Part shown: positions 5,685 through 57,703 of the stretch, piece by piece
Layout: every line of letters begins with the position of its first letter
Numbering within the stretch: position 1 is the stretch's first letter
NCBI RefSeq assembly: GCF_024362405.1
Contig: NZ_CP101454.1
Coordinates: 2,046,001 to 2,110,000, forward strand
Length of the DNA stretch: 64,000 nt
Source of the DNA: Halorarius litoreus
GTDB lineage: Archaea > Halobacteriota > Halobacteria > Halobacteriales > Haloarculaceae
Direction: 5' to 3'
Notes under the pieces: model-generated
Told to the model about the DNA's origin: nothing
The model's database searches: none
The model's input: the letters and a program-made list of their open reading frames with translations, nothing else
Position numbers and translations under genes: made by a program

Positions 5685-5699
5685 ACGGTATACGACGAT

Positions 5700-6425: not shown

Positions 6426-6470
6426 CAGCGATATCGAGCGCTCGGTGGCGGGGTGTCGGGAGGGGCGACG

Positions 6471-6713
6471 TTACCGGTTCTCGACGACGGTGCCGCCCGC
6501 CCCGACCGCGACCTCGACGTCGCCGTCGAGGACGGCCTTCAGGTTGTCACCGACGGGCGTCGACTCCTCCGTCCAGCCCGCGCGTCGCGGCGGAACACCG
6601 CGCCGCCACCACCGACGGTGAGGCCGGGGGTGCCCTCGACCTCGACGTCGCGGAGGCCGGTGTCGCCGGTGTCCTCGCGTCGCCACTGGCTGCCGTTCCA
6701 GTTGTAAGAACAA
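6471..6713 (-). pseudogene. Decayed C-terminal gene fragment, frameshifted
   Basis: Two minus-strand frames together give protein-like sequence that no single frame holds. The upstream part reads SYNWNGSQWRREDTGDTGLR followed by DVEVEGTPGLTVGGGGAVFR, and the downstream part, shifted by one base near 6570, reads WTEESTPVGDNLKAVLDGDV then EVAVGAGGTVVENR before a stop. The alternation of W/T-rich and G-rich strands resembles the last blades of a secreted beta-propeller, but this is inference. No start codon or intact upstream half exists, since the DUF5828-like gene begins its 3' end 25 bases upstream. It looks like the truncated, frameshifted tail of a lost gene; a sequencing error would not explain the missing 5' part. 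Confidence 0.6.
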
Positions 6714-6737
6714 GTGCCTTGGTGTCCGCCCCGGCCG

Positions 6738-7454: not shown

Positions 7455-7506
7455 TGCGTGTCACCCCGTACGAGAGGTCCAGATATACGCCTTGTGTGTG
7501 GACATC

Positions 7507-8154
7507 TCAGTCCCCCTCCCGCTCGCGGAACGTCGCAGCCCGCTCGGGGAGGCTGTCGACGGTGGCCTCGAGCGCTTCGAGCGCGTCGCCGAGCCGCTCG
7601 GCGTGCTCGCCGCTGTCGTCGAGCAGGTCGAGATGGCCGTACGCCACCGACAGCTCCCCACGGAGCTCGTGGACAACCTCGTCGGCGAACGCTTCGACGC
7701 GGTCGGGCGCCTCGTCGCCGTCGTCGCCCGCGTCGGCCGTCGACGGTCGCTTCGCGACGCTCGTCAGGATGCGCTCGGCCAGCTTCGTCAGCTGGCCCGC
7801 GTCCCCCTTCTCGATGACCGCCGTGACGCCAGCCTCACGGGCCTCCTCCGCGACCTGCTCGTCGACGCGCCCCGAGTACAGCAGGAACGGGTGGTCGGGG
7901 TCCCGGTCGCGTATCGCCGGGAGGAGGTCGAGCCCGGAGCCCTGCGGGAAGCGGTAGTCCGCGACCACCGCGTCGAACGTCGTCTCGGCGAGCGTCTCGG
8001 TGGCGTCCTTGAGACTCCACGCGAGCGACACCTCGAACCGGGGGTCGTGTCGCTCGAGCCACTCGCGGACCAGCGGTCCGGTCTGCTGGTTGTCTTCGAC
8101 GTACAACACTCGAACCGTCTCGCCGGGGTCCGCTGTCGAACGCTGCTCGGTCAT
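7507..8154 (-). CDS. Response regulator receiver protein with a histidine-bearing C-terminal helix
   Basis: A 215-residue protein. Residues about 13-135 form a CheY-like receiver: acidic pair E20-D21 in VLYVEDNQ, phosphoacceptor D66 in VVADYRFPQGSG, the serine in LLYSGR and lysine K116 in VIEKGDAG. After an acidic linker, residues about 150-190 read EAFADEVVHELRGELSVAYG, which resembles the H-box of a histidine-kinase dimerisation domain with H162 in place. No ATP-binding (HATPase) domain follows; the protein ends after one more helix. It could be a phosphotransfer or docking module rather than a kinase. There is no cognate kinase next to it; a PAS kinase lies 7.5 kb away. Confidence 0.85.
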   Translation of the reverse strand: MTEQRSTADPGETVRVLYVEDNQQTGPLVREWLERHDPRFEVSLAWSLKDATETLAETTFDAVVADYRFPQGSGLDLLPAIRDRDPDHPFLLYSGRVDEQVAEEAREAGVTAVIEKGDAGQLTKLAERILTSVAKRPSTADAGDDGDEAPDRVEAFADEVVHELRGELSVAYGHLDLLDDSGEHAERLGDALEALEATVDSLPERAATFREREGD

Positions 8155-9397: not shown

Positions 9398-10432
9398 ATG
9401 GCACACGAGAGTCCACTCGACCGCAGAACGTTTCTCGCAACCAGTGGCGTGGCCGGTATCGCCGCACTCGCCGGCTGTACAGGCACCGGCGGTGATGGTG
9501 GCGATGGTGGCGATGGCGGCGACGGCGGTGACGGTGGCTCCGGCGACGGCGACGGTGGCTCCGGCGACGGCGGCAGCGGTGAGACCCGCCTGTCGTGGCA
9601 CGCTGGTGGGACCGGTGGGACGTACTTCCCGCTCTCGAACGAGTTCAAGCAGGTCATCGAGTCGAACACGAGCTTCAAGATTCAGGTCCAGTCGACCGGC
9701 GCGTCCGTCGAGAACGTCGGCTCGCTGGCTAGCGGGGACGCGGACTTCGCGCTCATCCAGAACGACGTCGCCTACTTCGCGAAGAACGGCACCGGCATCG
9801 ACGCGTTCAAAGACAACGCCGTAGAGAACCTCCGCGGCGTCGCCACGCTGTACCCGGAGACCATCACCATCGTCACCCTCGCCAGCACGGGCATCAGCGA
9901 GCCCGCTGACCTCGAGGGCAAGACCATCAACACCGGTGACCTCGGCTCCGGAACGCAGGTCAACGCCGTCCAGATCCTGGAGGCGCTCGGCATCAGCGAC
10001 TACACCGAGCAGAACGCCGGGTTCTCGACCGCCGCGGACCAGCTGAAGAACGGCGACATCGACGCGGCGTTCGTCGTCGGCGGCTGGCCGGTCGGCGCGA
10101 TTTCCGACCTCGCGACCACGAACGACGTCGAGATCGTCTCCATCACGGGCGACGACCGACAGGCCGTCCTCGACGCCGCGCCGTTCTATGCCGAGGACAC
10201 CATCCCCGGTGGCACGTACAACGGCATCCCCGAGGACCGCGAGACGGTCTCCGTCCAGGCGATGATCGCGACCCGTGCCGAACTCGCGGCCGACACCGTC
10301 GAGCAGGTCACCGCCGCGATCTTCGACAACCTCGGCGACCTGACGATCAAGACGCAGTTCATCACCAAGGAGAGCGCACAGGACGGGATGTCCATCGACC
10401 TCCACGAAGGCGCCTCCGCATACTTCGGCTAG
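9398..10432 (+). CDS. TAXI-type TRAP transporter solute-binding lipoprotein
   Basis: A 344-residue extracytoplasmic binding protein of the TRAP TAXI class. The N terminus MAHESPLDRRTFLATSG then VAGIAALAGC carries a twin-arginine motif and a lipobox, so it is probably exported folded and lipid-anchored at the cysteine. A glycine-aspartate linker of about 30 residues follows. The ligand domain begins SWHAGGTGGTYFPLSNEFKQ and includes VQSTGASVENVGSLASGDADF and EGKTINTGDLGSGTQVNAV, typical of TAXI proteins that bind carboxylates such as glutamate. The ATG nine codons into the longest frame was chosen because it starts the Tat signal and fits the TATA spacing. It is first in a three-gene operon. 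Confidence 0.93.
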   Translation: MAHESPLDRRTFLATSGVAGIAALAGCTGTGGDGGDGGDGGDGGDGGSGDGDGGSGDGGSGETRLSWHAGGTGGTYFPLSNEFKQVIESNTSFKIQVQSTGASVENVGSLASGDADFALIQNDVAYFAKNGTGIDAFKDNAVENLRGVATLYPETITIVTLASTGISEPADLEGKTINTGDLGSGTQVNAVQILEALGISDYTEQNAGFSTAADQLKNGDIDAAFVVGGWPVGAISDLATTNDVEIVSITGDDRQAVLDAAPFYAEDTIPGGTYNGIPEDRETVSVQAMIATRAELAADTVEQVTAAIFDNLGDLTIKTQFITKESAQDGMSIDLHEGASAYFG

Positions 10433-10435
10433 CGG

Positions 10436-10918
10436 ATGGACGCGCGCCGTCTCGTCGTCGTCGCGCTCGTCGTCGTGGCGGGCAGTGCCGGCTTCGTGGC
10501 GGCCCAACCCGATCGCGTACTCGTCGTCGAGGACGCCGACACCGGCGATAGACTGTTGACCGTGCCCGTCGAGGACGGTTCCACGGTGACGCTCACGTAC
10601 ACCCACAGCGTCGAGAAGACCCCCGTCGAGGACGTCTACACCGTCGACGGCACCCGACTCGACAACTCGCTGATGCGCTTCGAGTCGTACGGCTGGGGGC
10701 TGCCGGCCCGTGAGGACGTCCGGCTTGAGGACGGCTGGTTCGTCTTCGATCCCGACCGGACGTACGACGAGTTCTACGTGAAGCCCGGTCGCATCGCCGG
10801 GCACACCCTGACCGTCGACGGCGAGACGTACGACCTCGTCGAGCTCTCGAACGCGAGTTCGGTCCGTATCGCCGTCGAACGCCGGTCCCCCCTCCCTGCC
10901 TTCCAGGTTTCATCATGA
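10436..10918 (+). CDS. DUF1850 family protein of the TRAP operon
   Basis: A 160-residue protein with a hydrophobic N-terminal signal (about residues 4-22) and a beta-rich domain that fits DUF1850: LTVPVEDGSTVTLTYTHSVE, PVEDVYTVDG, MRFESYGWGLPA. DUF1850 proteins are regularly encoded between TAXI binding proteins and fused TRAP permeases and are thought to be accessory; their exact job is not established. It starts three bases after the binding-protein stop codon and overlaps the permease start by four bases (ATGA), so the three are almost certainly co-translated. Confidence 0.88.
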   Translation: MDARRLVVVALVVVAGSAGFVAAQPDRVLVVEDADTGDRLLTVPVEDGSTVTLTYTHSVEKTPVEDVYTVDGTRLDNSLMRFESYGWGLPAREDVRLEDGWFVFDPDRTYDEFYVKPGRIAGHTLTVDGETYDLVELSNASSVRIAVERRSPLPAFQVSS

Positions 10919-13545
10919 GTACACGCGACGACCAACCGAACGACCCCATCGACCCGACCGAGGATCCGGACGTACTGACCGAAGAGGAGCAGGAGGAACT
11001 CCTCAAGGAGCTCGAACGCAAGCGGTCGCTCTCGGGAGCGGCGGCCATCGTCGTCTCGCTCATCGCCATCGCCTTCTCGCTGTATCAGGTGTGGCTCGCT
11101 GCCCGCGGCTTCGAGTTCGTCTTCACGCTGCCGCTCGTGGGCGAGGTCGAACTCGCCGCGCTCCAGCAGCTCCAGGTGAACGCGATTCACGTCGTGTTCG
11201 CACTCGTGGTCGCGTTCGCGCTGTTCCCACCGTCGACCGGCCAGGGGTTCGTCTCCCGCCGGCTCGCGAAGATCGTTCCCGGTGCCCGCGCGCGATTCGG
11301 TGACGACTCACCCGTCACGCGCGTGCTCGCCGCGCTCGCCGGTGCCGTCCGCTGGTTCGCCGGCGACGCCGACATGAACCGGGTGACGCCCGTCGACTTC
11401 GTGTTCATCGCCTTCGCGCTCTCGGCGGCGTACTACTACATGACGGAGTTCGACGAGATCCTCCGGATGCGTGCGCTCGGCCTCGACGCGGGGCGCACGG
11501 TGGGCGAGATATACACGTTCCTCGCGCCGCTGAACAGCGTCCCCATCCTCGGGGAGTCGTCGTGGGCGTACCTGCTCGCCATCGGCGTCGCACTCCTCGT
11601 GCTCGATGCGACCCGTCGGGTCCTCGGGTTCTACCTGATGGTCATCGTCGGCTCGTTCATCGTCTACGCGAAGTACGCGTTCCTCATCCCCCTCGACGCC
11701 CCGTTCATCTCGGTGCTGTCGACGACCGAGGCGTCGTGGGCGACCATCGCGCGGAACCTCTGGTACACCGACCAGGGGATTCTGGGCGTGCCGGTGCTGG
11801 TGTCGGTGCAGTTCATCTACATCTTCATCCTGTTCGGCGCGTTCCTCGAGATGTCGGGCGCGGGCCAGTGGCTCATCGACCTCGCGTACGCCGCGACCGG
11901 GCGCCGGAAGGGCGGCCCCGCGAAGGCGTCGATTCTCGCCTCCGGGTTCATGGGGACGATCTCGGGCTCCTCCATCGCGAACACCGTCACGACGGGGGCG
12001 TTCACCATCCCGCTGATGAAGAAGTCCGGCTACCGGGCGTCGTTCGCGGGCGCGGTCGAGGCCTCTGCGTCCTCTGGCGGGCAGATTCTCCCGCCCGTCA
12101 TGGGCGCGGCGGCGTTCCTCATCGTCGAGTACACGCTGACGCCGTACGCGGACGTGATTCTCGCGGCGGCCATCCCGGCCATCGTCTTCTTCTTCGGCGT
12201 CTGGGTGATGGTGCACCTGGAGGCGTCGCGACTCGGTATCGGTGGCGTCGAGGGCGTCGAGCTCGTGAACATGCGTAAACACCTGACCCGCGGCTGGTTC
12301 TACTTCGCGCCCATCGGCCTGTTGCTGTACTTCCTCATCATCGAGCGCCTGTCCGTGGCGCGCTCGGCGTGGTTCACCATCCTCGCCATCATGGCGCTCA
12401 TCGCGTTCGTCGCCGCCTACAGCAAGGAGACCCGCATCCCGCTCGTCGGCGCCATTGCGGTGTTCGCGGCCATCCGTGCGGGACTCGCCTCGATGAATGG
12501 CGAACCCATCGTCGCCACCGTCCTCGGTGGCCTCGGCTGGATCATGATCGGCGGCTCGCTCGCCGTCCTGCTCGCCCGGCCCGGCACCGACCCCGACCTG
12601 CTCGACTACAACGACGACGTGAACGATGCCGCCGAGACGGGCGCCGGGCTGTTCGGCCGCCCCTCGCTGGCGGGGCGGGCGGCGTTCCGCTACCTGACGT
12701 TCATCGTCAAGTCGCTCGACAACGGCGCACGGACCGCGACCACCGTGGTCATCGCGGTCGCCGCCGCCGGCATCATCCCCGGCGTCATCGCGACGACCGG
12801 GCTGGGGCCGAACCTCACGTCGCTCATCCTGAGTCTCGCAGGCGGGTCGCTCGTCGTCCTCCTGCTCATCACGGCGGTGTCGTGTATCATCCTCGGGATG
12901 GGGATGCCGACGACGGTCACCTACATCATCCTCGTCTCGCTGCTCGGCCCGGCTATCGCCGAGTTCGGGATTCCGATTCTCGCGGCGCACCTGTTCATCC
13001 TCTACTTCGGTGTCATCGCCGACATCACGCCGCCCGTCGCGGTCGCGGCGTACGCGGCCTCGGGGGTCGCGAAGTCCGACCCGTTCGAGACCGGCGTCGA
13101 GGCGTTTAGCCTGTCGCTGAACAAGGCCATCGTGCCGTTCGCGTTCGTCCTCTCGCCCGGCATCCTCCTGATTCGGGGTGTCGGGACGGGTGAGGAGGTC
13201 CACGTCCTCAACGCGGCCGACATCGCCGACCTCGGGTTCTTCATCCCCGAGGTGGTCATCCCGGTCATCGGGGTGTTCGTCGGCGTCGTCGCGCTCGCCG
13301 CGACGGTCATCGGGTACCTCTACACGGACGTCTCGCGGGCCGAGCGGCTCGGATTCGCGGTGTCGGCGCTCCTGCTCATGGCGCCCGGCATGATTCTCGG
13401 TCCCCTCTCTGGTATCGTCGGGACGGGCATCGCCATCGATCTCGGCACCCGACTGCTCGGCGGCGCGCTGTTCGCCGCGCTCGTGCTGGCGAACCGGCGC
13501 GGCGCGAGCCCGAAGCGCACCGAGGGCGAGGGCGCAGCGGCCTAG
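10915..13545 (+). CDS. TRAP transporter permease, fused 4TM/12TM subunit
   Basis: An 876-residue membrane protein in which the small (DctQ-like) and large (DctM-like) TRAP permease subunits are fused, as is usual for TAXI systems. The first 40 residues are cytosolic and very acidic. Many hydrophobic segments follow; landmarks are the family stretch ASILASGFMGTISGSSIANT, VEASASSGGQILPPVMGAAA, and a second copy of the transport motif in the C-terminal half with ILGMGMPTTVTYIILVSLLG and FGVIADITPPVAVAAYAASG. It would import the solute caught by the binding protein, driven by an ion gradient, sodium being usual for TRAP systems. The stop codon overlaps that of the convergent IMPACT gene. Confidence 0.94.
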   Translation: MSTRDDQPNDPIDPTEDPDVLTEEEQEELLKELERKRSLSGAAAIVVSLIAIAFSLYQVWLAARGFEFVFTLPLVGEVELAALQQLQVNAIHVVFALVVAFALFPPSTGQGFVSRRLAKIVPGARARFGDDSPVTRVLAALAGAVRWFAGDADMNRVTPVDFVFIAFALSAAYYYMTEFDEILRMRALGLDAGRTVGEIYTFLAPLNSVPILGESSWAYLLAIGVALLVLDATRRVLGFYLMVIVGSFIVYAKYAFLIPLDAPFISVLSTTEASWATIARNLWYTDQGILGVPVLVSVQFIYIFILFGAFLEMSGAGQWLIDLAYAATGRRKGGPAKASILASGFMGTISGSSIANTVTTGAFTIPLMKKSGYRASFAGAVEASASSGGQILPPVMGAAAFLIVEYTLTPYADVILAAAIPAIVFFFGVWVMVHLEASRLGIGGVEGVELVNMRKHLTRGWFYFAPIGLLLYFLIIERLSVARSAWFTILAIMALIAFVAAYSKETRIPLVGAIAVFAAIRAGLASMNGEPIVATVLGGLGWIMIGGSLAVLLARPGTDPDLLDYNDDVNDAAETGAGLFGRPSLAGRAAFRYLTFIVKSLDNGARTATTVVIAVAAAGIIPGVIATTGLGPNLTSLILSLAGGSLVVLLLITAVSCIILGMGMPTTVTYIILVSLLGPAIAEFGIPILAAHLFILYFGVIADITPPVAVAAYAASGVAKSDPFETGVEAFSLSLNKAIVPFAFVLSPGILLIRGVGTGEEVHVLNAADIADLGFFIPEVVIPVIGVFVGVVALAATVIGYLYTDVSRAERLGFAVSALLLMAPGMILGPLSGIVGTGIAIDLGTRLLGGALFAALVLANRRGASPKRTEGEGAAA

Positions 13546-47764: not shown

Positions 47765-48478
47765 ATGAGCGATATCACGGCGTTCGTCGGCACGACCGGC
47801 GGCGCGGGGACGACGCGGGTGACGGTGGAGGTCGCGGCGACGCTCGCCCGCGACGGTGACGACGTGGCGATACTCGATGCGGCGTACGCGACACAGGGGC
47901 TCGCCGACCACGTCCAGGGCCGCATCGACCCGGACGTGACCGCGCTCGTCACCGAGGAGTGGCCGCTCGACGACGGACTCGTCGAACTCCCGGTCGAGAC
48001 GAGCGGTCGGGTCGTCGCCGCACCGGCGTACGCGCCGTTCGAGCGGCTGGCGCGGGCGAAGACGCCCGACGCCGCACGGCGGTTCGAACGCCTCGCGGAG
48101 ACCGCCGCCCGCGAGTACGACGCCGTGCTCGTCGACACGCCGCCAATCGCGGCGAACCAGGCGGTCGCGGCGGTGACCGTCGCCGACCGGGTCGCGCTCG
48201 TCACGCCCGGAACAACGCGGGGGACGGACGCCCTCGCCCGGATGCGGGACCGACTGGCAGATGTCGGCTGCGAAGTCGACGCGTCGGTCGCCACCCGCAC
48301 GACCGAGACGGGCGTCGCGGACGTCGCCGTTCCCGAGAGCGACACGACCGACCCGGGGGCGGTCCCGGTGTGTGACACGGCCGACGGCGCGCTCGCTGCT
48401 GCGGTCGTCGAGGCGACCGAGACCACACTCGACCGCGACCTCGACGTCGAGTTCGACGACGGACTCCTCGGCCTATAG
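47765..48478 (+). CDS. MinD/ParA-like protein lacking the P-loop lysines
   Basis: A 237-residue protein with the SIMIBI-class fold of MinD/ParA: N-terminal strand and loop ITAFVGTTGGAGTTRVTVEV, the switch-type AILDAAYATQGLADHV, Walker B-like AVLVDTPPIAANQAV and the later strand RVALVTPGTTRGTDALARMR. The loop equivalent to KGGVGKTT reads TGGAGTTR (T10 and T16 at the two lysine positions), so both lysines that mark deviant Walker A ATPases are gone. It may still bind nucleotide, but hydrolysis is doubtful. A TATA-like gtaattttttg lies about 30 bases upstream. Its 3' end overlaps the next, convergent gene by six bases. Confidence 0.82.
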   Translation: MSDITAFVGTTGGAGTTRVTVEVAATLARDGDDVAILDAAYATQGLADHVQGRIDPDVTALVTEEWPLDDGLVELPVETSGRVVAAPAYAPFERLARAKTPDAARRFERLAETAAREYDAVLVDTPPIAANQAVAAVTVADRVALVTPGTTRGTDALARMRDRLADVGCEVDASVATRTTETGVADVAVPESDTTDPGAVPVCDTADGALAAAVVEATETTLDRDLDVEFDDGLLGL

Positions 48479-48967
48479 GAACTCGTCGGCGTCCGAGCGA
48501 GCGTCGTCGAGCGGGTCCGCCAGTTCGACTGCGAGCGCTCCTTCGAGCGCCTCGCGCGCCTCGGGGAGCGGGTCGTGTGTCTCGACGAACACCGCGAGTG
48601 CGAACTCGGCGTCGTCACACTGTGTTAGCTCCAGGGCGTCCGCTCGCGAGAGTCGGGCATCGAGCCAGTCGCGCACGACTCGCTGGCCAGTGGGGCCGAG
48701 TGGATGGACCGACTCGCCGAGCAGGTGGAGCGCCTTCGCTCCGGTCACGGGCGCGATACCAGCCTCACGAGCGGCGGCCCCGACGCTCGTTCCCGTCGCG
48801 TAGCTGTCGACGAGCGTCGCCGCCGCAGCCGGGGTACACGGCAGGGCGTCGGCGAACGGCTCGAGTCGCTCGACGAGCGGCGTGTCGGTGTCGTCGACCA
48901 CCGCCACCCCGCGCGCCTCCTGTTCGGCAGTCACCTCCAGCCCTGCGGCCAACTCCGAGAGCGTCAC
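48473..48967 (-). CDS. Conserved helical protein between the MinD-like and TFB genes
   Basis: A 164-residue mostly helical acidic protein, not assigned to a named family. It starts with GTG (MTLSELAAGLEVTAEQEARG), has the helix-rich core CTPAAAATLVDSYATGTSVG then AAAREAGIAPVTGAKALHLL, which looks like a helix-turn-helix, and ends DPLDDARSDADEFL. A DNA-linked role is a reasonable guess from the HTH-like pattern and neighbours. It is divergent from the TFB gene. Confidence 0.7.
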   Translation of the reverse strand: MTLSELAAGLEVTAEQEARGVAVVDDTDTPLVERLEPFADALPCTPAAAATLVDSYATGTSVGAAAREAGIAPVTGAKALHLLGESVHPLGPTGQRVVRDWLDARLSRADALELTQCDDAEFALAVFVETHDPLPEAREALEGALAVELADPLDDARSDADEFL

Positions 48968-49085
48968 AGGCGCTCTGGTGGGTTCATTTCACTAAAAACT
49001 ACGCCAGAGAGAACTCGCCGAACCTACCGGTCACCGGTGGGTTCCCGTCGGTGCGTCGGTGGTCACTCGCGGCCTCACGACTCCG

Positions 49086-49093
49086 TTTTTAAC
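49086..49093 (+). promoter_or_regulatory. TATA box of the TFB gene
   Basis: The run tttttaac lies 25 bases before the TFB ATG, with the GC-rich ctccg immediately upstream where a BRE would be. The spacing suits a leaderless transcript. Confidence 0.5.
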
Positions 49094-49117
49094 CCCCATC
49101 GCGAGCCAGTTTCAGAT

Positions 49118-49981
49118 ATGAGCACGACGGCAACTGCGTGCCCCGAGTGTGACGGTCGACTACACAGCGACGGAACCGAGACCATCTGTGGCGAGTGCGG
49201 GCTCGTCGTCGGTGAGGACGCGCTCGACCGCGGCCCCGAGTGGCGGTCGTTCGCGGACGACGACACGAACCCGAAGCGGTGTGGGGCACCGCTCACGCGG
49301 TCGCGACACGACCGGGGGCTCTCGACCGAAATCGGCCGGTCGACGCGGCTCAAAGGTCGCAAACGCCGGCGGGTCGCGCGGATGCGAACACAGCACCGGC
49401 GCGCGCAGATCTCGTCGAAGACGGACCGGAACCAGGTCTACTCGTTCACGGAGATTCGACGCATCGTGAGCGCACTCGAACTCGGCGACCCTGTCCGCGA
49501 GCAGGCGTGTACGCTGTTCGAGTCGGCACAGGACGCGGACCTCCTCCGCGGGCGCTCGCTGGAGGGGTTCGCCGCGGCGACCGTCTACGCGGTCTGCCGG
49601 GTGAACGGTGTCGCCCGGACGGTCGAGGAGATAACGCGACGGGCGAAGGCCGACGCGGACGAACTCCGAGTGGCGTACGATGCGCTCAACCGCGAACTCG
49701 GCCTTCCAACGGGACCAATCGACCCGCGCTCGTATCTCGCGCGGTTCACCTCGGCGCTCGACCTGCCGCGCGAGGTGGAGGCCGCCGCCCGCGAGCTCGC
49801 CGAACGGGCCGACGACGAGGGGCTGACCGTCGGTCGAAATCCCTGTGGCGTGGCAGCGGCCTGTCTCTACGCGGCGGCGACCGAGCGGGGCCACTCACTG
49901 ACGCAGGCCGAGGCCGCCGACGTGGCCGACGTGACACCCGTCACGCTCCGGTCGACGTATCACGAACTGACCGACCGCTGA
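49118..49981 (+). CDS. tfb: Transcription initiation factor IIB
   Basis: A 287-residue archaeal TFB that bridges TBP-bound promoters and RNA polymerase. The N-terminal zinc ribbon has C8, C11, C24 and C27 (ACPECDGRL and ICGECGLV). The B-finger/linker region follows with DRGPEWRSF and the basic LKGRKRRRVARMRTQHRRAQ. Two cyclin repeats are seen, about residues 105-195 (GRSLEGFAAATVYAVCRVNG) and 200-285 (VGRNPCGVAAACLYAAATER, with DVTPVTLRSTYHELTDR). Haloarchaea usually have several TFBs; this one is somewhat shorter (usual length about 310-330). It overlaps the convergent MinD-type ATPase by 22 bases. Confidence 0.94.
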   Translation: MSTTATACPECDGRLHSDGTETICGECGLVVGEDALDRGPEWRSFADDDTNPKRCGAPLTRSRHDRGLSTEIGRSTRLKGRKRRRVARMRTQHRRAQISSKTDRNQVYSFTEIRRIVSALELGDPVREQACTLFESAQDADLLRGRSLEGFAAATVYAVCRVNGVARTVEEITRRAKADADELRVAYDALNRELGLPTGPIDPRSYLARFTSALDLPREVEAAARELAERADDEGLTVGRNPCGVAAACLYAAATERGHSLTQAEAADVADVTPVTLRSTYHELTDR

Positions 49982-50622
49982 ACGCCCGCGGCCAGTTCCT
50001 CGAACCGCTCCGCTGCGGTCGCGTCGGGTGCGAGCGCGGCGACCGGCTGGCCGTGTGCCATCGCCCGCGAGACGTGCGCTGCGTTCGGTATCTCGACGAC
50101 AGGCGCGCCCAACGCATCCCGGACCGCCTCGGTTTCCTGTCCGTCGCTTCTGTTGACGACGACCCGTGCCAGTCCTGCGTCGAGTGCGCGAGCGAGCGCT
50201 CGCGCTCGGAGCGCGTCCGCGAGTGCGACTCGCGACGGGGTGGTCACGACCACGCAGGCGTCCGCGGCGAGCAACGCCGCCCCCGAGTCGCTCGCGAGGC
50301 CGGCCGGACAGTCGACGACCACTCGCCCGTACGCTCGCTCGACAGCTGTGAGTGCCTCGGGCAGCCGTCGAACGTCGCAGGCACGGGCCCCCGCGAGCGT
50401 CCGCCCACAGGGGAGCAGGTCGACCGGGCCGGACTCGTCGACCGCCTCGATCGCCGAAGCGCGCCCCGCGAGCACGTCGTGGAGGTCCGGGCCACGGGAC
50501 TCGGGGAGGTCGGCCATCCCGAGGTCCGCGTCGACCGCCACGGCGTCTACTTCGGCGGCGAGGTTGTACGCCACGGTCGTCTTGCCGACGCCACCCTTCC
50601 CGCCGACGACTGCGAGAATCAC
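49960..50622 (-). CDS. MinD/ParA-type ATPase
   Basis: A 220-residue ATPase of the MinD/ParA group with an intact deviant Walker A, GGKGGVGKTT (K9 signature lysine and K14), Walker A' VAVDADLGMADLPESRG, Walker B VVVDCPAGLASDSGA and the base-contact VVVNRSDGQETEAV. No C-terminal amphipathic MinD-type membrane helix is obvious; the end is short (GVQRSVSS). The start codon is GTG, overlapping the stop codon of the preceding gene by four bases (GTGA). As I recall, one haloarchaeal MinD homologue in Haloferax also lies near tfb and mcm, so the neighbourhood may be conserved. Confidence 0.92.
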   Translation of the reverse strand: MILAVVGGKGGVGKTTVAYNLAAEVDAVAVDADLGMADLPESRGPDLHDVLAGRASAIEAVDESGPVDLLPCGRTLAGARACDVRRLPEALTAVERAYGRVVVDCPAGLASDSGAALLAADACVVVTTPSRVALADALRARALARALDAGLARVVVNRSDGQETEAVRDALGAPVVEIPNAAHVSRAMAHGQPVAALAPDATAAERFEELAAGVQRSVSS

Positions 50623-51359
50623 GCGAGTCGCTCCAGCGTCTCGATGGGGACGTTCGCCGCCTCGATTCGCCCCGCGAGCGTCTCCGCCCGCGCCGCGAGC
50701 CTGAGCAGCCGGTCGCGGTCTCGCTCGGTTCGCGCACACAGGTCGCGGACCCCGGCGAGTCCGTCGGCGTCCGCGACGGCGACCGTCGCCTCGGGAACTG
50801 TCCGTACGGCGTCGAGTGCTTCGAGACGGTCGACGCGAACGTCGACCGCGTCGAGGAGCGCCTCGGGGTCGTGCGGGATGTCCCCGGTCGGGTAGCCTGT
50901 GGGGGTCACTGCACCCGTTTCTTCACCGAACGCCTGCCCACTGTCGTCGGCGGTTTCGCACCCGGTCGTCTCCGTGTCGGCGGTCGGTTCGAACAGTCCC
51001 GCACGCGGCGGCCGTGGGTCGGTCAACTCCCGAGCCACGTCGTCAGGGGTCGGCTCCTGCCCGAACCGGCCGTTCTGGTCGCCGGCCTCGTCCAGCGACT
51101 CGACGTGAACGGGATCCTCGAGCGGTGGCGCGGGCGATGCGAACCCGACGCCGACCGTTCCCTCCGGCGGCAGCCGACTCGTCCACTCGCCGTCGTCCCA
51201 GCCGTGGGCTGCGTGGCTGCCGTCGCGCGGCGGCCAGGTCGGCCCGTTCAATCGGCTCCGGAGTCGAGCGCGCATCGCCGTCTCGTGGTCGTTCGTGAGC
51301 CGACACTCGACCAGCGTGACGCCGTCCGCGCGGCGACACTCGGCGGCTACCGTCACCAT
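50619..51359 (-). CDS. Unrecognised protein upstream of the MinD-type ATPase
   Basis: A 246-residue acidic protein. The first 75 residues form a small beta-rich domain (VTLVECRLTNDHETAMRARL, PPEGTVGVGFASPAPPLEDP). Residues 80-165 are a disordered Pro/Thr/Asp-rich linker. The last 80 residues are helical with coiled-coil character, ATVAVADADGLAGVRDLCAR then TERDRDRLLRLAARAETLAG. No family is recognised. It overlaps the ATPase gene by four bases, so it may be a partner of the ATPase; the coiled-coil end could be the contact site. Confidence 0.7.
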   Translation of the reverse strand: MVTVAAECRRADGVTLVECRLTNDHETAMRARLRSRLNGPTWPPRDGSHAAHGWDDGEWTSRLPPEGTVGVGFASPAPPLEDPVHVESLDEAGDQNGRFGQEPTPDDVARELTDPRPPRAGLFEPTADTETTGCETADDSGQAFGEETGAVTPTGYPTGDIPHDPEALLDAVDVRVDRLEALDAVRTVPEATVAVADADGLAGVRDLCARTERDRDRLLRLAARAETLAGRIEAANVPIETLERLA

Positions 51360-51389
51360 GGCGGCGGTGGCCGCGCCATCGGTGATAAA

Positions 51390-52187
51390 CTACAGCCGGA
51401 CGACCGGCACGTCGAACGCACGAGCGAGGTGCGCCGTGTCGACCGCCTCGAGTTCCACGACCACCGGGGCGTCGAACGCGGCGACCGTCGCGGCCGCGAG
51501 CGCCACGGTCGGGTCCGTCGCGTCGTCGAGGTCGGGGGCATCCAGGTCGTCGAGTGCGGTGACCACGTCGGGGCGAACCCGCTCGGCGAGCGTCGCTCGT
51601 GCCTCGCGCTGGAGGTTCGCGGCCCGGTCCTGCAGTTCGAGCCGGCGTTCCCGGCGGTCGTAGGCGTCGCGGGCCCTCGTCCGTTCGCGGTCGAGCGCCT
51701 GGCGGGCGGCCTCGCGCTCGGTCGTCGCCTCCGAGAGCTTCCGGCCGACTGCGACGAGTTCGTCGGCCGCCTCGGTGGCGTCGAGTCCGGCCTCGCGTCG
51801 CGCCCGGACCGCACCTCGCAGCGTCGCGGCCCGTTCGCGGAGGCGGTCGCGTTCGCTCCCCGCTGTCGCGACCTGCTCCCGCGCATCGGCGAGCGCGGTC
51901 GGACCGGCGTCGAGGTCACGAAGCTGTCGGGCGACCGCGACGAGTTCGTCCAGTTGCGGGGCCGTCCAGCCGCGGGAGCGCGCCACCGCGGCGAACGCTG
52001 CCCGACGGTTCAGGGGCATCCCGTGCCGGAGCCAGCCGAGCTGCTCGTGGGCTGGGCCGGGCGTCGGACAGTCAATCAAGTCGGCTGCAGGGTCGCGAAT
52101 CGCCGTCACCAGCCGTTCGGGGGGCACGTCATCGCTGCGCCGGTCGAGGAGCCCCGCGCCCGAATCGAACGATGGTACGTCGGTCAC
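51390..52187 (-). CDS. Unrecognised coiled-coil protein of the MinD/TFB cluster
   Basis: A 265-residue protein whose middle (about residues 85-205) is a long coiled coil: SERDRLRERAATLRGAVRAR, VGRKLSEATTEREAARQALD, AYDRRERRLELQDRAANLQR. The N-terminal 80 residues are a compact domain with HEQLGWLRHGMPLNRRAAFA, and the C-terminal 45 residues end DVPVVRL as a possible strand. The start is GTG, overlapping the stop of the preceding gene by four bases (GTGA), and a spacer of 30 bases precedes the next gene. Function unknown. Confidence 0.72.
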   Translation of the reverse strand: MTDVPSFDSGAGLLDRRSDDVPPERLVTAIRDPAADLIDCPTPGPAHEQLGWLRHGMPLNRRAAFAAVARSRGWTAPQLDELVAVARQLRDLDAGPTALADAREQVATAGSERDRLRERAATLRGAVRARREAGLDATEAADELVAVGRKLSEATTEREAARQALDRERTRARDAYDRRERRLELQDRAANLQREARATLAERVRPDVVTALDDLDAPDLDDATDPTVALAAATVAAFDAPVVVELEAVDTAHLARAFDVPVVRL

Positions 52188-52522
52188 AGCTCTCGGTCCC
52201 GGAGCTCCTCGGGTGCGGGGTGGTCGGTTCCGGCCGCGAACTTTTCGTACGGGGTGTACGTCCCGCTCTCTCGTTCGTAGGCGACGGCCGCCTCACGGAC
52301 GTCGTCGGGCGCGTCGGCGAACTCGTTGAACGGGCGGGTCCGTTCGACCTGCACGTCGTCCGGGTGGCGTTCCCGGAGCCGGCAGGCGAGGAACGCGCCT
52401 GCGGCGGTGGCCTCGAACAGCGCCGCCCGGCCGAACGTCCGGACGACGCTCTCCTCGTGGCTCCGGCAGACGTTCCGGAGCGTGGTCCGCGCCGCCCGCG
52501 AGTACGTCACGACCAGCAGCAC
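52184..52522 (-). CDS. Unrecognised small protein of the MinD/TFB cluster
   Basis: A 112-residue protein beginning with GTG: MLLVVTYSRAARTTLRNVCR, then SHEESVVRTFGRAALFEATA and AGAFLACRLRERHPDDVQVE. It ends APEELRDREL. It is an alpha/beta protein with no membrane segment; the N-terminal strand and the conserved-looking cysteine do not match a known catalytic set. It overlaps the coiled-coil gene by four bases and is the second gene of the apparent five-gene chain. Confidence 0.7.
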   Translation of the reverse strand: MLLVVTYSRAARTTLRNVCRSHEESVVRTFGRAALFEATAAGAFLACRLRERHPDDVQVERTRPFNEFADAPDDVREAAVAYERESGTYTPYEKFAAGTDHPAPEELRDREL

Positions 52523-52571
52523 GGCTGGTTCTGTGCCAGCTTCGAACTATAAAATTAATCGTCGTGGCGAA

Positions 52572-52844
52572 CTATTCGATCCGGTCCACGTCGAACGACG
52601 GCTCGGCGGAGAGGAGGTCGGTGAGGCGGTCGCGGGCCGCCCCCGCCGACGGCGCGAGCACGACCATGCCGTCGGCGGGGTCGTCGCCCGTCGCCCGGTA
52701 GGCGTGGAGGTCGCCCTCGAACTCCGTCGCGTACGTTCTGAGGACGCCCCGGACCTGCCGTTCGAGCCCTGCGAGGTCCGTCTCGCCGGCCTCGAAGTCG
52801 GCGAGCGCGTCCTCGACGTTCCGGAGCGCGCTGATACGGTCCAT
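52572..52844 (-). CDS. Unrecognised small helical protein, first gene of the cluster
   Basis: A 90-residue acidic protein, MDRISALRNVEDALADFEAG followed by ETDLAGLERQVRGVLRTYAT and ending DLLSAEPSFDVDRIE. It appears as two helices and a small strand region (DGMVVLAPSAGAARDRLTDL). It starts the chain of same-strand genes ending at the MinD-type ATPase. The start was placed at the ATG that gives the helical N terminus; a longer frame adds 25 low-quality codons. Confidence 0.68.
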   Translation of the reverse strand: MDRISALRNVEDALADFEAGETDLAGLERQVRGVLRTYATEFEGDLHAYRATGDDPADGMVVLAPSAGAARDRLTDLLSAEPSFDVDRIE

Positions 52845-52954
52845 ACGAAAACTCGTGCCGGCCGCCGTAATATGTCCTCGGCTCCCGCCGCGAGGTCCCC
52901 GCCGGTCGGCGTCGCCCACGGCTTTTTGCTCACAGCCGTCGTACCGGTGTGGAT

Positions 52955-53440
52955 ATGGCCGCCGAGTTCGCCCGACAGTTCGACCCCCGAACGTCGCTCA
53001 CACCTGCGGTACTCGCGTTCCTCGTCGGGCTCGCTGGCCACGCCGTCGACCAGTCACTCTTCGTCCGTGCGGGTCCGATGCCCGCGGTCCTGACGGCGGC
53101 GGTCGTCGCGACGGTCTGCTACCTCCACCGCCGCGATACCCCCCGCTTGCAGGCGCTCGCCCTCCTCGTGTGGGGGGTCGTCGCGTCCGGGGCGGGTGTG
53201 CTCGGTGTGTACCTCCTCACGGTCGGCGACCAGCTCCCCCGGGCCCTGACCGAGACCGAGATAGTCCTGTACGACTTCGGGCTGTTCCTGTGGTTCGTCC
53301 TCACGCTCGCTGTGGCCTACTGGGTCGCGGCTGGCCGTGAGCGACGCACCGCGGCTGTCGCCCTCCTGCTCGCGCCGGTCCTGCAAGCGGTGTACGGGCT
53401 GCTCCTGGTGGCGCTCGTCGCCATCGGGCTGTTCGCCTGA
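52955..53440 (+). CDS. Membrane protein, unknown function
   Basis: A 161-residue protein with about four hydrophobic helices (residues 19-35, 43-60, 69-90 and 105-160). The stretch LTPAVLAFLVGLAGHAVDQS and RRDTPRLQALALLVWGVVAS alternate membrane and charged loops. No family recognised. It is divergent from the MinD/TFB cluster and converges on the mcm gene with a three-base gap between stop codons. A GTG two codons upstream is an alternative start. Confidence 0.72.
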   Translation: MAAEFARQFDPRTSLTPAVLAFLVGLAGHAVDQSLFVRAGPMPAVLTAAVVATVCYLHRRDTPRLQALALLVWGVVASGAGVLGVYLLTVGDQLPRALTETEIVLYDFGLFLWFVLTLAVAYWVAAGRERRTAAVALLLAPVLQAVYGLLLVALVAIGLFA

Positions 53441-53443
53441 CGC

Positions 53444-56400
53444 TCAGGTCGTCCGCAGGTGCCCCTGCTTCGGTTCGTAAATCTCGCCCTTCTGCCGGAG
53501 CTTCTGAATCTCGTGTTCGGCCTTGTCGCGGTCCATGCCGACGGCCTCGGCGCGCTCGAACACCTCGTCTTCGGGGGCGCCGTCCTCGTACTCGTCTTCG
53601 AGCTCTCGGATGATGCCCCGGATGTTCTTGATGCGGTCGCGCTGGGTCTTCGAGGTGCCGGCCTCGACGATGTCGGCGTCGAACTCGCCGGTCTCGGGGT
53701 CGACACCGATGTCCCGGAGGGAGTTCCGAACGATGTCGATGACCCGGTCGGCGTCCCCCTTCTCGACGGTGTCGGAGAGCCGGACCCGCGCCGAGGCCTC
53801 CCCGAGCCGCACGAGCGCCTCCAGTTTCCGGGCGGTGACCGGCACCGGCGCGTCGTCGTCGGCCCCCTGGGCGCGCAGACTCACGTAGAAGTCCCGAATG
53901 GCTTCCTTCGCCTCCTCGGTCATCGTCGGGAAGCAGTTGCGTTTGGCGTAGGCGATGTACTTCCGCAGGAGGTCCGCTTCGATCTCGGGGATGACGTCCT
54001 CGGTGACGTTGTCGACCTCCTCCTGTGAGACGTTCGAGGTGGCGACGTTGTTCCGGTGGGTGAACAGCTCGCCCGCGTAGTTCGTGTTGATGATGTGCTC
54101 GGCGAGGTCGCTGTCCTTCTCCTTGTCCGGCTTGTCCGTCACCGTGAAGATGAGGTCGAACCGCGAGATGAGCGCGGGCTCGAGGTCGATCTGCTCGCCC
54201 ATCGGCTCGTACTGGTCGAATCGTCCATATTTGGGGTTCGCCGCGCCGAGGAGCGAACAGCGGGACTTGAGGGTGGCGTTGATGCCGGCTTTCGAGATGG
54301 AGATGGAGTTGTGGAGGAGAACGCCCTGGCTGACGAACGTGTTGGTCGGTTCGACGGTGACGTCGTACACCCAGTCGGTCGCGTACTCGCCCTCGTTCGG
54401 CACCGTCTCTACATCGGTCACCCGGTAGTACCTGAGGTCGCAGCGGGCTTCGAGCGCGTCGGCCCGCCGCTCGGCTTCGTCCATCGCATTGTGAATCGCA
54501 GCGCGTGCACGGTCTGCGAGTTCTGCCCGCGCTTCGGCGTCGTAGCCTCCGTCTTCGGCGTCGTGGATGCGACTCGTCGTCGTCCCATCCATCCGCTCGG
54601 CTAACTGGCGCCCGGACCAGCCAATGGCCTCTCGAACGCCCGCGAGACCGTCGGTCGCGTCGATCGATCGCAGGACCTCGGTGATACGTTCGCGAACTGT
54701 CTTCACTTGGGATTCGACAGACTCGATCTGGACGCCGAACCCTTCATCGAGGTTCGGGCGGAACTGCCCGGTTTTCCGAAGGCCGACGAGCGAGCGAAGT
54801 TCGCGAATCTCCCGGGCGGCACTGGTCGGCAGCACGTCGTGATGCCGGAGCGTCTCGTTGCTCCGCTCGACGAACGCCTGTGCTTTCTCGTGACGGTCGT
54901 CAGCCGGTTCGACGACGGCATCGACGAACCGCTCTGTCGAGTCACCCATCACGTACACCTTCCACGAATCTTCGGCGGTGTCGTGGTGGATGCGTGAGGC
55001 GACGCCGATTTTTGCGAGGGCATCCGCGTAGTCCTCGGCGAGCCCCTCCGAGGCGGTCGAGAACGACATCGCTTCGCTCTCGACCCCGCCGTCACCGGCG
55101 AACGCCCCGACGAGGAACCGGCGGATGTGCTCCTCCGAGGCGCCGAGTACGCGAGCCGGGATGCGTTTGTCCCGGGCGGTGTGCATGAACTCGGGGAAGT
55201 TCTCCTCGAACCAGCGGTAGAGCTTCGTCGACACCCAGCGCTTCGTCACGGTTCCTGCCGCGTTCGTGGTGTCGGTACTCTGGAAGCTGAACTCGCGCCG
55301 CATCAACTCGTCTACTCTTGCTAGCAGGCGGTCATCCTGATTCGAGAACCCGATTTCGTGTGACGAGCCGGCGTAGGAGTGTCCTTCGGCGACGAGGAAG
55401 CCGAGAATTTCTGCGAGGTCCTCGCTCAGTTCGTCGGGGAGGTCCACATCCCGCTCCTTTCCGACGTGTGGCTCGTCGTCGAGGTTGACCGGCGCACTCG
55501 AGTTCGGGAGCTTCCGTGGTGCAGGGACGAATGCGCCTTTCTCGATATCACGTGCCTCGACCGTGCCAACCTCGCCGTCGATGTCTGCGAACATCGGGTG
55601 TTCGGGTGTCACGAGTACGTCGCGGCCGTTGGAGAACGTCACGCGGACGAACTCGTCGGGAGCCTCGTGTCGACTCACGCGGTCGACCGGCTGCTTCGTC
55701 GTCTCGTTCGTCTCGAGGTCGACCGAGTGAACGCGTACGTCGTCTACCGGTAATATCTCACAGTCGACGCCATCGACTATCTCATCCGAGCGGGCCGCCA
55801 TCTGCTCGTCAACGAACTCCCCGATTTTGACGCGGCGACCATCCGCGAGCAGTACCTCCGAGTTCGGATGGTACGACTGCTGCTCGAGCGCTTCGTGCAT
55901 CGCAGAACGGTCCTCCGGCCGCATCTTGTCGAGTTCGTCCACCGCGGCGATGCCCTGGTCGGCGAGCACGAGCGCGCCGGCTTCGAGCGTCCACTGCTGG
56001 CCGTCGCCGAAGTCGTCGCGGACCGCAGCTGCGGTGAGACCTGCGCTCGACGAGCCTTTCCCGGAGGTGTAGACGGAGCGCGGGGCCAACTTCTTCACGT
56101 ACTGAAGCATCTGGGAGTTGTGCGAGACGACGTTGTTCCCGATGTACGTGTGCGTGCCCGCGACTTCGAGGTCGTACACCCAGTCGTAGTCGGGTTCGAC
56201 AGTCTCGATGGACTCGATTGAATCAGCCCGCGCCGTTCGAATGCCACCGGACTGCGCCGAGTGAGTGGATTGACTCTCAATCATCACGCCACCATCGGTC
56301 GCAACCGGCTGCGAGTCACTCACGAGGATTTCCTGACCGACAGCGAGGTTCTCGGCACGGACTGCCTGTGGCTCACCTTCTGTTGCAAGGAACAGCGGGT

Positions 56401-57652
56401 GTGACGGTGTCACCTCGACATCGTACCCACTCGCTGTCTGAATCTGGTACATCCGGTCGGGAGCCTCACGCTTCCAGACTTTCGTCGCACGCCGTTCGGT
56501 GATACTCCCGTCTGCTTCCATCGAGGGAAGTGGGAGATCGACCTCGTCGTACACGCCATCGTCTATCGGTTTCGGGTCTGTGAGATTCGACTCTACGAGT
56601 TCTCCTAACTCCCGTTCGGTTCCGTCTGCTAACTCGACTCTGGTATCATATTTCTGGCACTTCCCCGTCCCGGGGTCCCCAATCAGCAGCATGTGCAGGT
56701 CGCCGCGAATCCGCGACCCGTCTGGGAGGTCCTTCTTCACCCCCGAGAACAGTTGCATGATGATGGCGAGCTTCTGTTCCTCGTAGCCGAAGATGGAGGG
56801 AGCCATCGAGCCGACCATCTTCTCGTAGATGTCGGGGTCGTTCGACAGCTCGATGATCTCCTTCTTGTCGGCCTCGGTGATGTCCATCTCCTCGAACTGC
56901 TCGTCCTCGACCATCACCGTCATCCCCTGCATGTAGAAGTCGAAGACGGGGGACTTCTCCTGCTGGTTCCCCTGCTGTTCGAGGCGGAGGATCCCCGTGA
57001 CGGTGACGTGGTCGCCCGCCGTCACCTCGCCGGTGATGTCGTCTTCGATGTGGATGTCGATGGCCTGCGGCGTCTCGCCGCCACGGAGCCCTTCAGGGGA
57101 CTCCTGGACCCGAATCTTCTGGGCGTCGACGAACTCCGACTGGTCGAAGTTAATCTGGAAGGGGCCCTGCCGTTCACAGCCCTGACACTCGTGCGGCTCT
57201 TGAAACGTGCCGTCCGACTGGGGGACGCGGGTCATCGTGCCGCAGCGCTGGCACTCGAAGGCGGCGTTCTGGATCTTCGGGCGGACGTCCGTCGCCTTGC
57301 GGACGATACCCTGGACGGAGATGAGGTTACCGACGTGGTCGGCACGGATTTCGCGGATGCCCGTGGCGTCGGTGAGGTTGTGGACGCGGACGTGTGCCTG
57401 TCCGAGTTTCACGTCCACGGGGAGGTCGTAGAGCCGGAGGGCCTCCTCGGCGTAGTCTTGCATCTGGCCCGGTTGTGCGACGAAGTCGTCGGCGATGTCG
57501 GGGTCGAAGCGGTAGAGGTCGTCGTAATCGACGAGCAGCGACTTCTGTTCGCCGGGGTACTTCTGCGCGAGTTCGCCGATCTCGTTCCGGTAGTAGTTGC
57601 GGTAGAACTCCTCGAAGCGGTCGATGATCTCGGCGTTCTCCGCGCGTGCCAT
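53444..57652 (-). CDS. mcm: MCM replicative DNA helicase containing two inteins
   Basis: A 1402-residue precursor. Exteins sum to 698 residues, the normal size for archaeal MCM. Domains in order: N-terminal A domain; zinc ribbon with C134, C137, C156 and C159; OB fold; AAA+ domain with Walker A GDPGTGK (325-331), Walker B VDELDK (from 571), arginine finger LISRF (about 1161-1165); and a C-terminal winged helix ending QGHLRTT. Intein 1 follows K331 and intein 2 follows Q592 (before the SISISKAG extein motif). The start MARAENAEIIDRFEEF was chosen over a 15-codon longer frame. The protein unwinds DNA at replication forks. The upstream DNA has a palindrome. Confidence 0.97.
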   Translation of the reverse strand: MARAENAEIIDRFEEFYRNYYRNEIGELAQKYPGEQKSLLVDYDDLYRFDPDIADDFVAQPGQMQDYAEEALRLYDLPVDVKLGQAHVRVHNLTDATGIREIRADHVGNLISVQGIVRKATDVRPKIQNAAFECQRCGTMTRVPQSDGTFQEPHECQGCERQGPFQINFDQSEFVDAQKIRVQESPEGLRGGETPQAIDIHIEDDITGEVTAGDHVTVTGILRLEQQGNQQEKSPVFDFYMQGMTVMVEDEQFEEMDITEADKKEIIELSNDPDIYEKMVGSMAPSIFGYEEQKLAIIMQLFSGVKKDLPDGSRIRGDLHMLLIGDPGTGKCQKYDTRVELADGTERELGELVESNLTDPKPIDDGVYDEVDLPLPSMEADGSITERRATKVWKREAPDRMYQIQTASGYDVEVTPSHPLFLATEGEPQAVRAENLAVGQEILVSDSQPVATDGGVMIESQSTHSAQSGGIRTARADSIESIETVEPDYDWVYDLEVAGTHTYIGNNVVSHNSQMLQYVKKLAPRSVYTSGKGSSSAGLTAAAVRDDFGDGQQWTLEAGALVLADQGIAAVDELDKMRPEDRSAMHEALEQQSYHPNSEVLLADGRRVKIGEFVDEQMAARSDEIVDGVDCEILPVDDVRVHSVDLETNETTKQPVDRVSRHEAPDEFVRVTFSNGRDVLVTPEHPMFADIDGEVGTVEARDIEKGAFVPAPRKLPNSSAPVNLDDEPHVGKERDVDLPDELSEDLAEILGFLVAEGHSYAGSSHEIGFSNQDDRLLARVDELMRREFSFQSTDTTNAAGTVTKRWVSTKLYRWFEENFPEFMHTARDKRIPARVLGASEEHIRRFLVGAFAGDGGVESEAMSFSTASEGLAEDYADALAKIGVASRIHHDTAEDSWKVYVMGDSTERFVDAVVEPADDRHEKAQAFVERSNETLRHHDVLPTSAAREIRELRSLVGLRKTGQFRPNLDEGFGVQIESVESQVKTVRERITEVLRSIDATDGLAGVREAIGWSGRQLAERMDGTTTSRIHDAEDGGYDAEARAELADRARAAIHNAMDEAERRADALEARCDLRYYRVTDVETVPNEGEYATDWVYDVTVEPTNTFVSQGVLLHNSISISKAGINATLKSRCSLLGAANPKYGRFDQYEPMGEQIDLEPALISRFDLIFTVTDKPDKEKDSDLAEHIINTNYAGELFTHRNNVATSNVSQEEVDNVTEDVIPEIEADLLRKYIAYAKRNCFPTMTEEAKEAIRDFYVSLRAQGADDDAPVPVTARKLEALVRLGEASARVRLSDTVEKGDADRVIDIVRNSLRDIGVDPETGEFDADIVEAGTSKTQRDRIKNIRGIIRELEDEYEDGAPEDEVFERAEAVGMDRDKAEHEIQKLRQKGEIYEPKQGHLRTT
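54308..55876 (-). other. Intein 2 of MCM, LAGLIDADG endonuclease-bearing, Ser-1 type
   Basis: A 523-residue intein inserted after EALEQQ and before SISISKAG. Its first residue is serine (SYHPNSEVLLADGRR) rather than the more usual cysteine, and it ends VLLHN with the C-extein serine next. Block B is DVLVTPEHPMF. Two endonuclease dodecapeptides are LAEILGFLVAEG (residues 746-757 of the precursor) and RRFLVGAFAGDG (844-855). A region around residues 1001-1055 looks like a helix-turn-helix (VREAIGWSGRQLAERMDGTT). Blocks F and G are DWVYDVTVEPTNTFVSQGVL and LHN. All blocks look intact, so splicing and homing are likely functional. Confidence 0.9.
56117..56659 (-). other. Intein 1 of MCM, mini-intein within the Walker A motif
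   Basis: A 181-residue intein directly after the P-loop lysine (GDPGTGK|C). It begins CQKYDTRVELADGTEREL, has block B GYDVEVTPSHPLFL, and ends WVYDLEVAGTHTYIGNNVVS then HN, with serine of SQMLQYVKKL as the first C-extein residue. No LAGLIDADG motif or endonuclease-sized insert is present; the space between blocks B and F is only about 65 residues. It is a mini-intein that depends on splicing competence alone. Confidence 0.92.
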
Positions 57653-57676
57653 GTGAGTATCCAGGGTTGGTGCCTG

Positions 57677-57703
57677 CTCCGCTAAGAAGTTTCGCAAGCG
57701 GAG
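57677..57703 (-). promoter_or_regulatory. Palindrome in the mcm promoter
   Basis: A perfect 7-base inverted repeat, ctccgct / agcggag, with a 13-base spacer holding aagaagtttcgca (minus strand: tgcgaaacttctt). The spacer is the most AT-rich part of the upstream region and could be the TATA element, about 38 bases before the start codon. The arrangement suits a dimeric regulator sitting over the TATA box. Confidence 0.45.

Follow-up and report, generated by a model that had tools for sequence, protein, structure and literature searches.

We suggest that an eight-gene block next to mcm in Halorarius litoreus is a co-inherited module that may connect a dedicated general transcription factor with a MinD-type ATPase, through operator control by the DUF7858 protein and an adaptor, the DUF7857 protein; from sequence comparison we give this reading a probability of about 0.42. 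The block lies in the window, by which we mean the whole 64,000-nucleotide stretch analysed (positions 2,046,001-2,110,000 of NZ_CP101454.1; all coordinates below count from its start), in a haloarchaeal genome of 4.17 Mb on two contigs. It comprises the ATPase (MinD1), a MinD relative lacking P-loop lysines (MinD-like), a general transcription factor (TFB), and five proteins that fall above cut-off in Pfam families DUF7854-DUF7858 (PF25252, PF25253, PF25254, PF25256, PF25257), entries with no function assigned. Haloarchaea encode many different TFBs and several paralogues of MinD, mostly of unassigned function; the module would bring a TFB, a true MinD, a lysine-free MinD and five families without assigned function together as one unit open to experiment, with a regulator and a DNA site that are both precisely predicted, and the block's families are also present in the genetic model Haloferax volcanii.

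Gene order and gene content indicate that the block is a co-inherited module, more than synteny. Across about 120 regions fetched around DUF7855 and compared, the order mcm, DUF7854, DUF7855, DUF7856, DUF7857, MinD1, TFB (opposite strand), DUF7858, MinD-like (opposite strand) recurs throughout the Halobacteriales and is never shuffled; departures are missing or relocated parts only, and two apparent exceptions (L117, L130) are caused by overlapping or fused frames. Named genera with this order include Halorarius, Halobellus, Halogeometricum, Halorussus, Halorientalis, Halorubellus, Halobaculum and Haloarcula; the window DUF7855 shares 85% identity with the Halorarius halobius protein. An original prediction, made from the window's sequence, had proposed a fixed gene order and a single machine, perhaps at the cell pole: the order proved stable, being interrupted or split without varying freely, and the block does behave as a functional unit, retained or lost jointly, but nothing that we found points to the cell pole.

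We surveyed joint presence in 195 genomes of the class, with counts that ignore shared ancestry and in which named and unnamed loci partly duplicate each other. DUF7856 and DUF7858 occur in the same 120 genomes, all of which carry DUF7855; 117 of them also carry DUF7854, and 118 the MinD-like gene, which was found in only three others. Hits outside the 120 are three distant DUF7855 copies in one family (f3) and decayed pieces: DUF7854 with the start of DUF7855 (G126), the first 30 positions of DUF7854 (G012), and the end of DUF7858 (G056). About 40% of haloarchaeal genomes lack the module, and because presence and absence are both found within six genera (g15, g21, g31, g41, g45, g57), the set must have been lost as a block several times. 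Relocated parts are still retained at distances above 80 kb. One of the 120 genomes (G101; L084 5333-5947) has an in-frame DUF7856-DUF7858 fusion remnant from which DUF7857, MinD1 and TFB have been deleted, and the lysine-free MinD gene survives beside it. In a sample of the phylum, the DUF7855 matches listed were all from the same order and none from outside. The block could instead be two independent units, a DUF7858/TFB circuit and, behind mcm, a MinD1 operon that has nothing to do with it, the two staying side by side because rearrangement is slow; the TFB-DUF7858-MinD-like trio is indeed physically apart from the MinD1 operon in Halorubrum-like genomes, and MinD1-DUF7857 occurs without the rest. 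We consider this unlikely, as the separated trio is nevertheless kept, and DUF7855 and DUF7856 occur in exactly the DUF7858 genomes, even where far apart.

Within the proposed mechanism the best-supported part is the step from DUF7858 through a palindrome to TFB. DUF7858 (48473-48967, minus strand, 164 amino acids; PF25257, E 2.1e-65), noted in the original prediction as an HTH-like gene, is divergent from TFB (49118-49981, plus strand; PF00382 and PF08271). Its AlphaFold2 model is all-helical, with a tri-helical core at residues 46-82 whose predicted local distance difference test (pLDDT) score is above 90, and an HTH_28 profile matches 20 of 76 homologues (best E 2.8e-4); on profile and model we take DUF7858 to be a helix-turn-helix (HTH) protein and a candidate DNA-binding protein. 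Its N-terminus, of low confidence in the model yet conserved (invariant Gln16 and Asp25), is plausibly a partner-binding segment. Pattern scans and comparison of loci identified a 25-bp palindrome, GAACCTACCGGTCACCGGTGGGTTC (49020-49044), in the divergent DUF7858-TFB spacer (48968-49117) as a putative operator of TFB (and DUF7858). A scan of the window allowing up to three mismatches gave one match against 0.01 expected, for a pattern drawn from that site itself.

The palindrome is closely tied to TFB. Its consensus, GAACSTACCGGTNACCGGTASGTTC, comes from a matrix built on the 89 different sequences that 102 of 115 spacers supplied; most of the remaining 13 are truncated by a mis-called TFB start, and the site is in fact there. 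Between the end of the palindrome and the TFB start there are 72-79 bp; TTTAAATA follows about 42 bp farther along, and the distance from the palindrome to DUF7858 is 61-93 bp. The fetched loci, 2.98 Mb in all, gave 132 matches, of which all but 3 weak ones lie at a TFB 5' end. In genomes with DUF7858 the palindrome stands at 126 of 132 TFB loci; in genomes lacking DUF7858 it stands at none of eight TFB loci, six of them syntenic. The six exceptions include a TFB that is probably a paralogue (L185), an odd TFB call (L041), two genomes (G018, G054) in which weak sites go with a strongly diverged DUF7858 HTH, and two genomes with an altered palindrome. The latter (L142, L147; genus g11) have a different operator palindrome, CACGTGTCGGTNACCGACACGTG-like, in the same layout; covariation of DNA specificity was rejected, as these two genomes have a changed palindrome yet no clear change in the DUF7858 recognition helix. 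Where TFB and DUF7858 are apart, the palindrome stays with TFB (L038, L039, L135; weaker in L100).

An HTH protein and a palindrome near a ParA/MinD-type ATPase recall ParABS/KorB and SegAB, and DUF7858 could in principle be a ParB-like protein on a parS-like site, with MinD1 or MinD-like as ParA. The neighbouring mcm and the resemblance of the DUF7858 HTH and following helices to KorB, Spo0J and Noc would fit, but these are weak HTH matches (E 2-6) in a Foldseek search that gave nothing below E 0.001; ParB identity, prompted by the pattern after the HTH, was rejected after sequence and fold searches gave no significant match. Partition systems differ further in that the single site here is tied to the TFB promoter, at a spacing fixed to the TFB start, and stays with TFB rather than DUF7858; the module is also missing from many haloarchaea. 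When copies of the palindrome were searched by pattern, the host genome held a single strong site, and matches to a broad pattern over the 195 genomes were mostly background, so that a multi-copy parS-like site was rejected. We regard partition as very improbable. Two genomes of genus g29 (G142, G033) have 13 and 9 broad-pattern matches, against mostly 0-5 elsewhere, possibly extra copies of the operator.

The MinD-like protein (47765-48478, plus strand; AAA_31 above cut-off, E 8e-9), whose gene is convergent with DUF7858 and overlaps its end by 6 bp, is the second MinD relative noted originally. Profile matches to MinD, McdA and Soj structures place it in the same fold family, but its P-loop in the window is GTTGGAGTTR, and neither the catalytic nor the signature lysine is present in 104 of 104 homologues (101 by pattern, 3 by eye; family motif G-x-x-G-G-[AV]-G-[TA]-T-R). 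At the Walker A' and B positions, Asp38 and Asp124 never vary. MinD-like matches structures (6noo, 6nop) of McdA-type ATPases, which position carboxysomes and also miss the signature lysine; it differs in lacking the P-loop lysine as well, with TTR instead. The gene is retained in all seven genomes without MinD1 (below) except G054. Because MinD-like tracks DUF7858, not MinD1, and is lysine-free, it is likely a non-hydrolysing partner of DUF7858.

MinD1 (49960-50622, minus strand, 220 amino acids; TIGR01969 minD_arch, E 8e-40; Pyrococcus MinD 1g3q, E 9e-24) ends the minus-strand run and is intact, as the original prediction had it, with the P-loop GGKGGVGKTT. Both lysines of the deviant Walker A motif (KGGVGK[ST]T) are kept by 163 of 167 sequences, among them that of the window; L128, L146 and L149 have lost P-loop lysines (GGNGGVGVST, GGKGGVGTST). 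At 136.5 bits the window protein scores below the curated TIGR01969 cut-off of 201.75 bits, and by sequence it is MinD-type by best match, outside the named archaeal MinD subfamily. By eye, and with no predictor behind the reading, no basic amphipathic helix was seen at its C-terminus (...FEELAAGVQRSVSS), and no match to MinC or MinE was found among the block proteins, the rest of the genome being outside that search. MinD1 is coupled to DUF7857 (50619-51359, minus strand, 246 amino acids; PF25256, E 1e-26) by a GTGA overlap, the MinD1 GTG start at 50622 overlapping the DUF7857 stop at 50621-50619; this GTG is the true start, and a longer frame from 50739 is merely an upstream extension. Of 146 loci, 143 retain this 4-bp overlap, and that of DUF7855/DUF7856 is found in 111 of 151, which argues that neither is chance.

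The four unnamed upstream genes had been expected always to accompany the ATPase, but only DUF7857 does so: Natrialbaceae-like and g6/g8 genomes keep MinD1-DUF7857 while lacking DUF7854, DUF7855, DUF7856 and DUF7858. All 20 genomes of family f3 and genera g6 and g8 that were chosen for a DUF7857 hit have MinD1 beside a short DUF7857 (119-125 amino acids) without these four, and in two genomes (G013, G065) the pair has been relocated together more than 130 kb away. Nor is the ATPase a constant part, since no MinD1 orthologue was found in seven genomes with DUF7855, DUF7856 and DUF7858 (G018, G036, G037, G049, G054, G100, G184), where the best match scored 66-83 bits against 188-235 in controls. 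DUF7857 consists of an N-terminal DUF7857 domain, a linker, and a C-terminal helical domain; the N-terminal domain tracks MinD1, and the C-terminal half mostly tracks the module, being present in 138 of 153 module-bearing loci versus 1 of 22 module-free loci. The g4 lineage, which has lost MinD1, retains both halves. This half-by-half distribution fits an adaptor role. Profile searches of DUF7857 and DUF7856 against solved structures gave nothing significant. Natural fusions were rejected as interaction evidence: a continuous 433-amino-acid DUF7856-DUF7857 frame (L117, G036, 9700-11001), in a species without MinD1, looks real but is confined to that single species, and a 749-amino-acid DUF7856-to-MinD1 frame (L106, G177, 5333-7582) looks like a DUF7856 frameshift with read-through across DUF7857.

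We propose that DUF7858, as a dimeric HTH regulator, would bind the palindrome, which lies between divergent promoters, and set expression of TFB and of DUF7858 itself. MinD-like, without an ATPase cycle, would act as a binding partner that modulates DUF7858, and DUF7857 would be an adaptor coupling MinD1 to the coiled-coil DUF7856 and to DUF7855. MinD1 would be an optional input, the assembly responding to its nucleotide state or position, and the outcome would be a choice of the promoters transcribed through the block's TFB. By analogy, this output may resemble the action of bacterial FleN, a MinD-type ATPase, on the regulator FleQ. That a MinD-type spatial or nucleotide-state switch is wired to basal transcription, with cell geometry or a positioning cycle choosing the general transcription factor, is a more doubtful extension. 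Overall the module seems somewhat like MinD-type transcription regulators and shares parts with positioning systems, but of the features that define Min and ParABS systems some are lacking and others equivocal.

Several points weigh against this mechanism. The support for a shared role of the MinD1 operon and the trio is their co-inheritance, and the co-occurrence and site counts carry the limits of ancestry and overlapping loci given above. There are 15 module-bearing loci without the DUF7857 C-terminal half. Two stand-alone DUF7858 genes (L174, L185) have their own promoter without the palindrome, so another regulator, co-inherited with the module, could bind the palindrome while DUF7858 has a different DNA target. 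A CsmR-like motif (TATCA-N4-TGATA) near the palindrome in 12 of 97 spacers, versus 0.6% of shuffles, and 17 bp from it in several Halobellus-like loci, suggests that other regulators do act there. The palindrome is however unlike the published CsmR motif (PMC13286277), and its decay goes with DUF7858 loss or divergence; we consider a different regulator improbable, and retain DUF7858 as the candidate.

The window locus appears to correspond to HVO_0221-0228 of Haloferax volcanii. Since mcm is HVO_0220 (PMC3972481) and MinD1 is HVO_0225 (PMC11588486), we infer by gene order that the syntenic TFB is HVO_0226; the original prediction had likewise mentioned a similar tfb-minD neighbourhood near mcm in Haloferax. 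HVO_0226 is described as a variant TFB that may take part in controlling motility and shape (PMC13286277), and the CsmR-like motif near the palindrome is consistent with this TFB having been grouped, in published work, with motility regulation. Besides mcm and MinD1, HVO_0226 is the sole locus tag of the stretch mentioned in the literature searched, where it occurs in two papers and DUF7854-DUF7858 are not named; MinD1 was already known, whereas the module and its DNA site are undescribed there. Published work on the Haloferax MinD1-MinD4 proteins concerns MinD2 and MinD4; the papers found do not treat MinD1 partners, joint inheritance or a lysine-free paralogue. The MinD2-HVO_0596 pair (PMC11588486) likewise joins a MinD ATPase and a conserved small partner in one operon, but there the place of DUF7857 is taken by HVO_0596, whose deletion had no phenotype.

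These studies bear on a further explanation, a positioning machine in which MinD1 would be the motor of Min- or ParA-like patterning, the DUF proteins cargo adaptors at the pole or nucleoid, and TFB a passenger. The intact MinD1 motifs, its coupling to DUF7857 and the probable coiled-coil partners would suit such a machine, as would the action of Haloferax MinD4 and MinD2 on the motility machinery and shape (PMC11588486, PMC11621097). Deleting all four Haloferax minD genes, however, causes neither a division nor a growth defect, and the quadruple mutant equals the MinD2/MinD4 double mutant in motility (PMC11588486, PMC11621097); no phenotype has been reported for MinD1; seven genomes keep the rest without MinD1; and no archaellin (PF01917) was found in 15 module-bearing genomes, including the host (G000), whose module is complete. 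Archaellin is slightly commoner with the module (105 of 120 versus 55 of 75 genomes; Fisher p 0.02, ignoring ancestry), but the 15 genomes rule out dependence of the module on archaella. We consider a positioning machine unlikely. Under the preferred reading, MinD1 gains candidate partners, and its deletion alone may be silent because several lineages keep the module without it.

The remaining members had been described originally as fitting no family, in five genes running in one direction (52844-49960, minus strand) with two GTGA junctions; the run and both overlaps are as described, but all four proteins upstream of MinD1 match Pfam families, DUF7854-DUF7857. DUF7854 (52572-52844, minus strand, 90 amino acids; PF25252, E 4.8e-37) is the most loosely attached, its gap to DUF7855 ranging from 31 to 3296 bp across loci. 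DUF7855 (52184-52522, minus strand, 112 amino acids; PF25253, E 3e-55) is the best conserved, with a predicted ferredoxin-like core (beta-alpha-beta-beta-alpha-beta) and C-terminal helices in AlphaFold2 (pLDDT 94.7 in the best of five models, 71-89 in the others). In Foldseek the best match to this core was VapD (E 0.015, template modelling score 0.39), followed by several Cas2 proteins, all below significance. VapD and Cas2, which are ferredoxin-like nucleases, have an acidic residue after the first strand; DUF7855 differs in having a conserved TYS at the end of this strand (consensus MLLVVTYS, 64 sequences). DUF7856 (51390-52187, minus strand, 265 amino acids; PF25254, E 9.1e-60) is probably coiled-coil by sequence, with marginal SMC-like matches (E 0.05).

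A TATA-like TTTTATAG (52547-52554, minus strand), visible in the sequence some 28 bp before DUF7855 starts, suggests that DUF7855-DUF7856-DUF7857-MinD1 is a separate, probable operon with its own promoter. In this run the DUF7856 GTG start at 52187 overlaps the DUF7855 stop (52186-52184), and the two junctions without overlap are gaps of 49 and 30 bp; TFB is convergent with MinD1, overlapping it by 22 bp. Between mcm and DUF7854 lies a predicted membrane protein of 163 amino acids (52949-53440, plus strand), with no Pfam family and nothing matching it in the loci fetched from relatives; it seems to be confined to the Halorarius litoreus lineage. The neighbouring mcm (53444-57697, minus strand) contains a short and a longer intein; intein sites in MCM are known in haloarchaea (PMC10643990).

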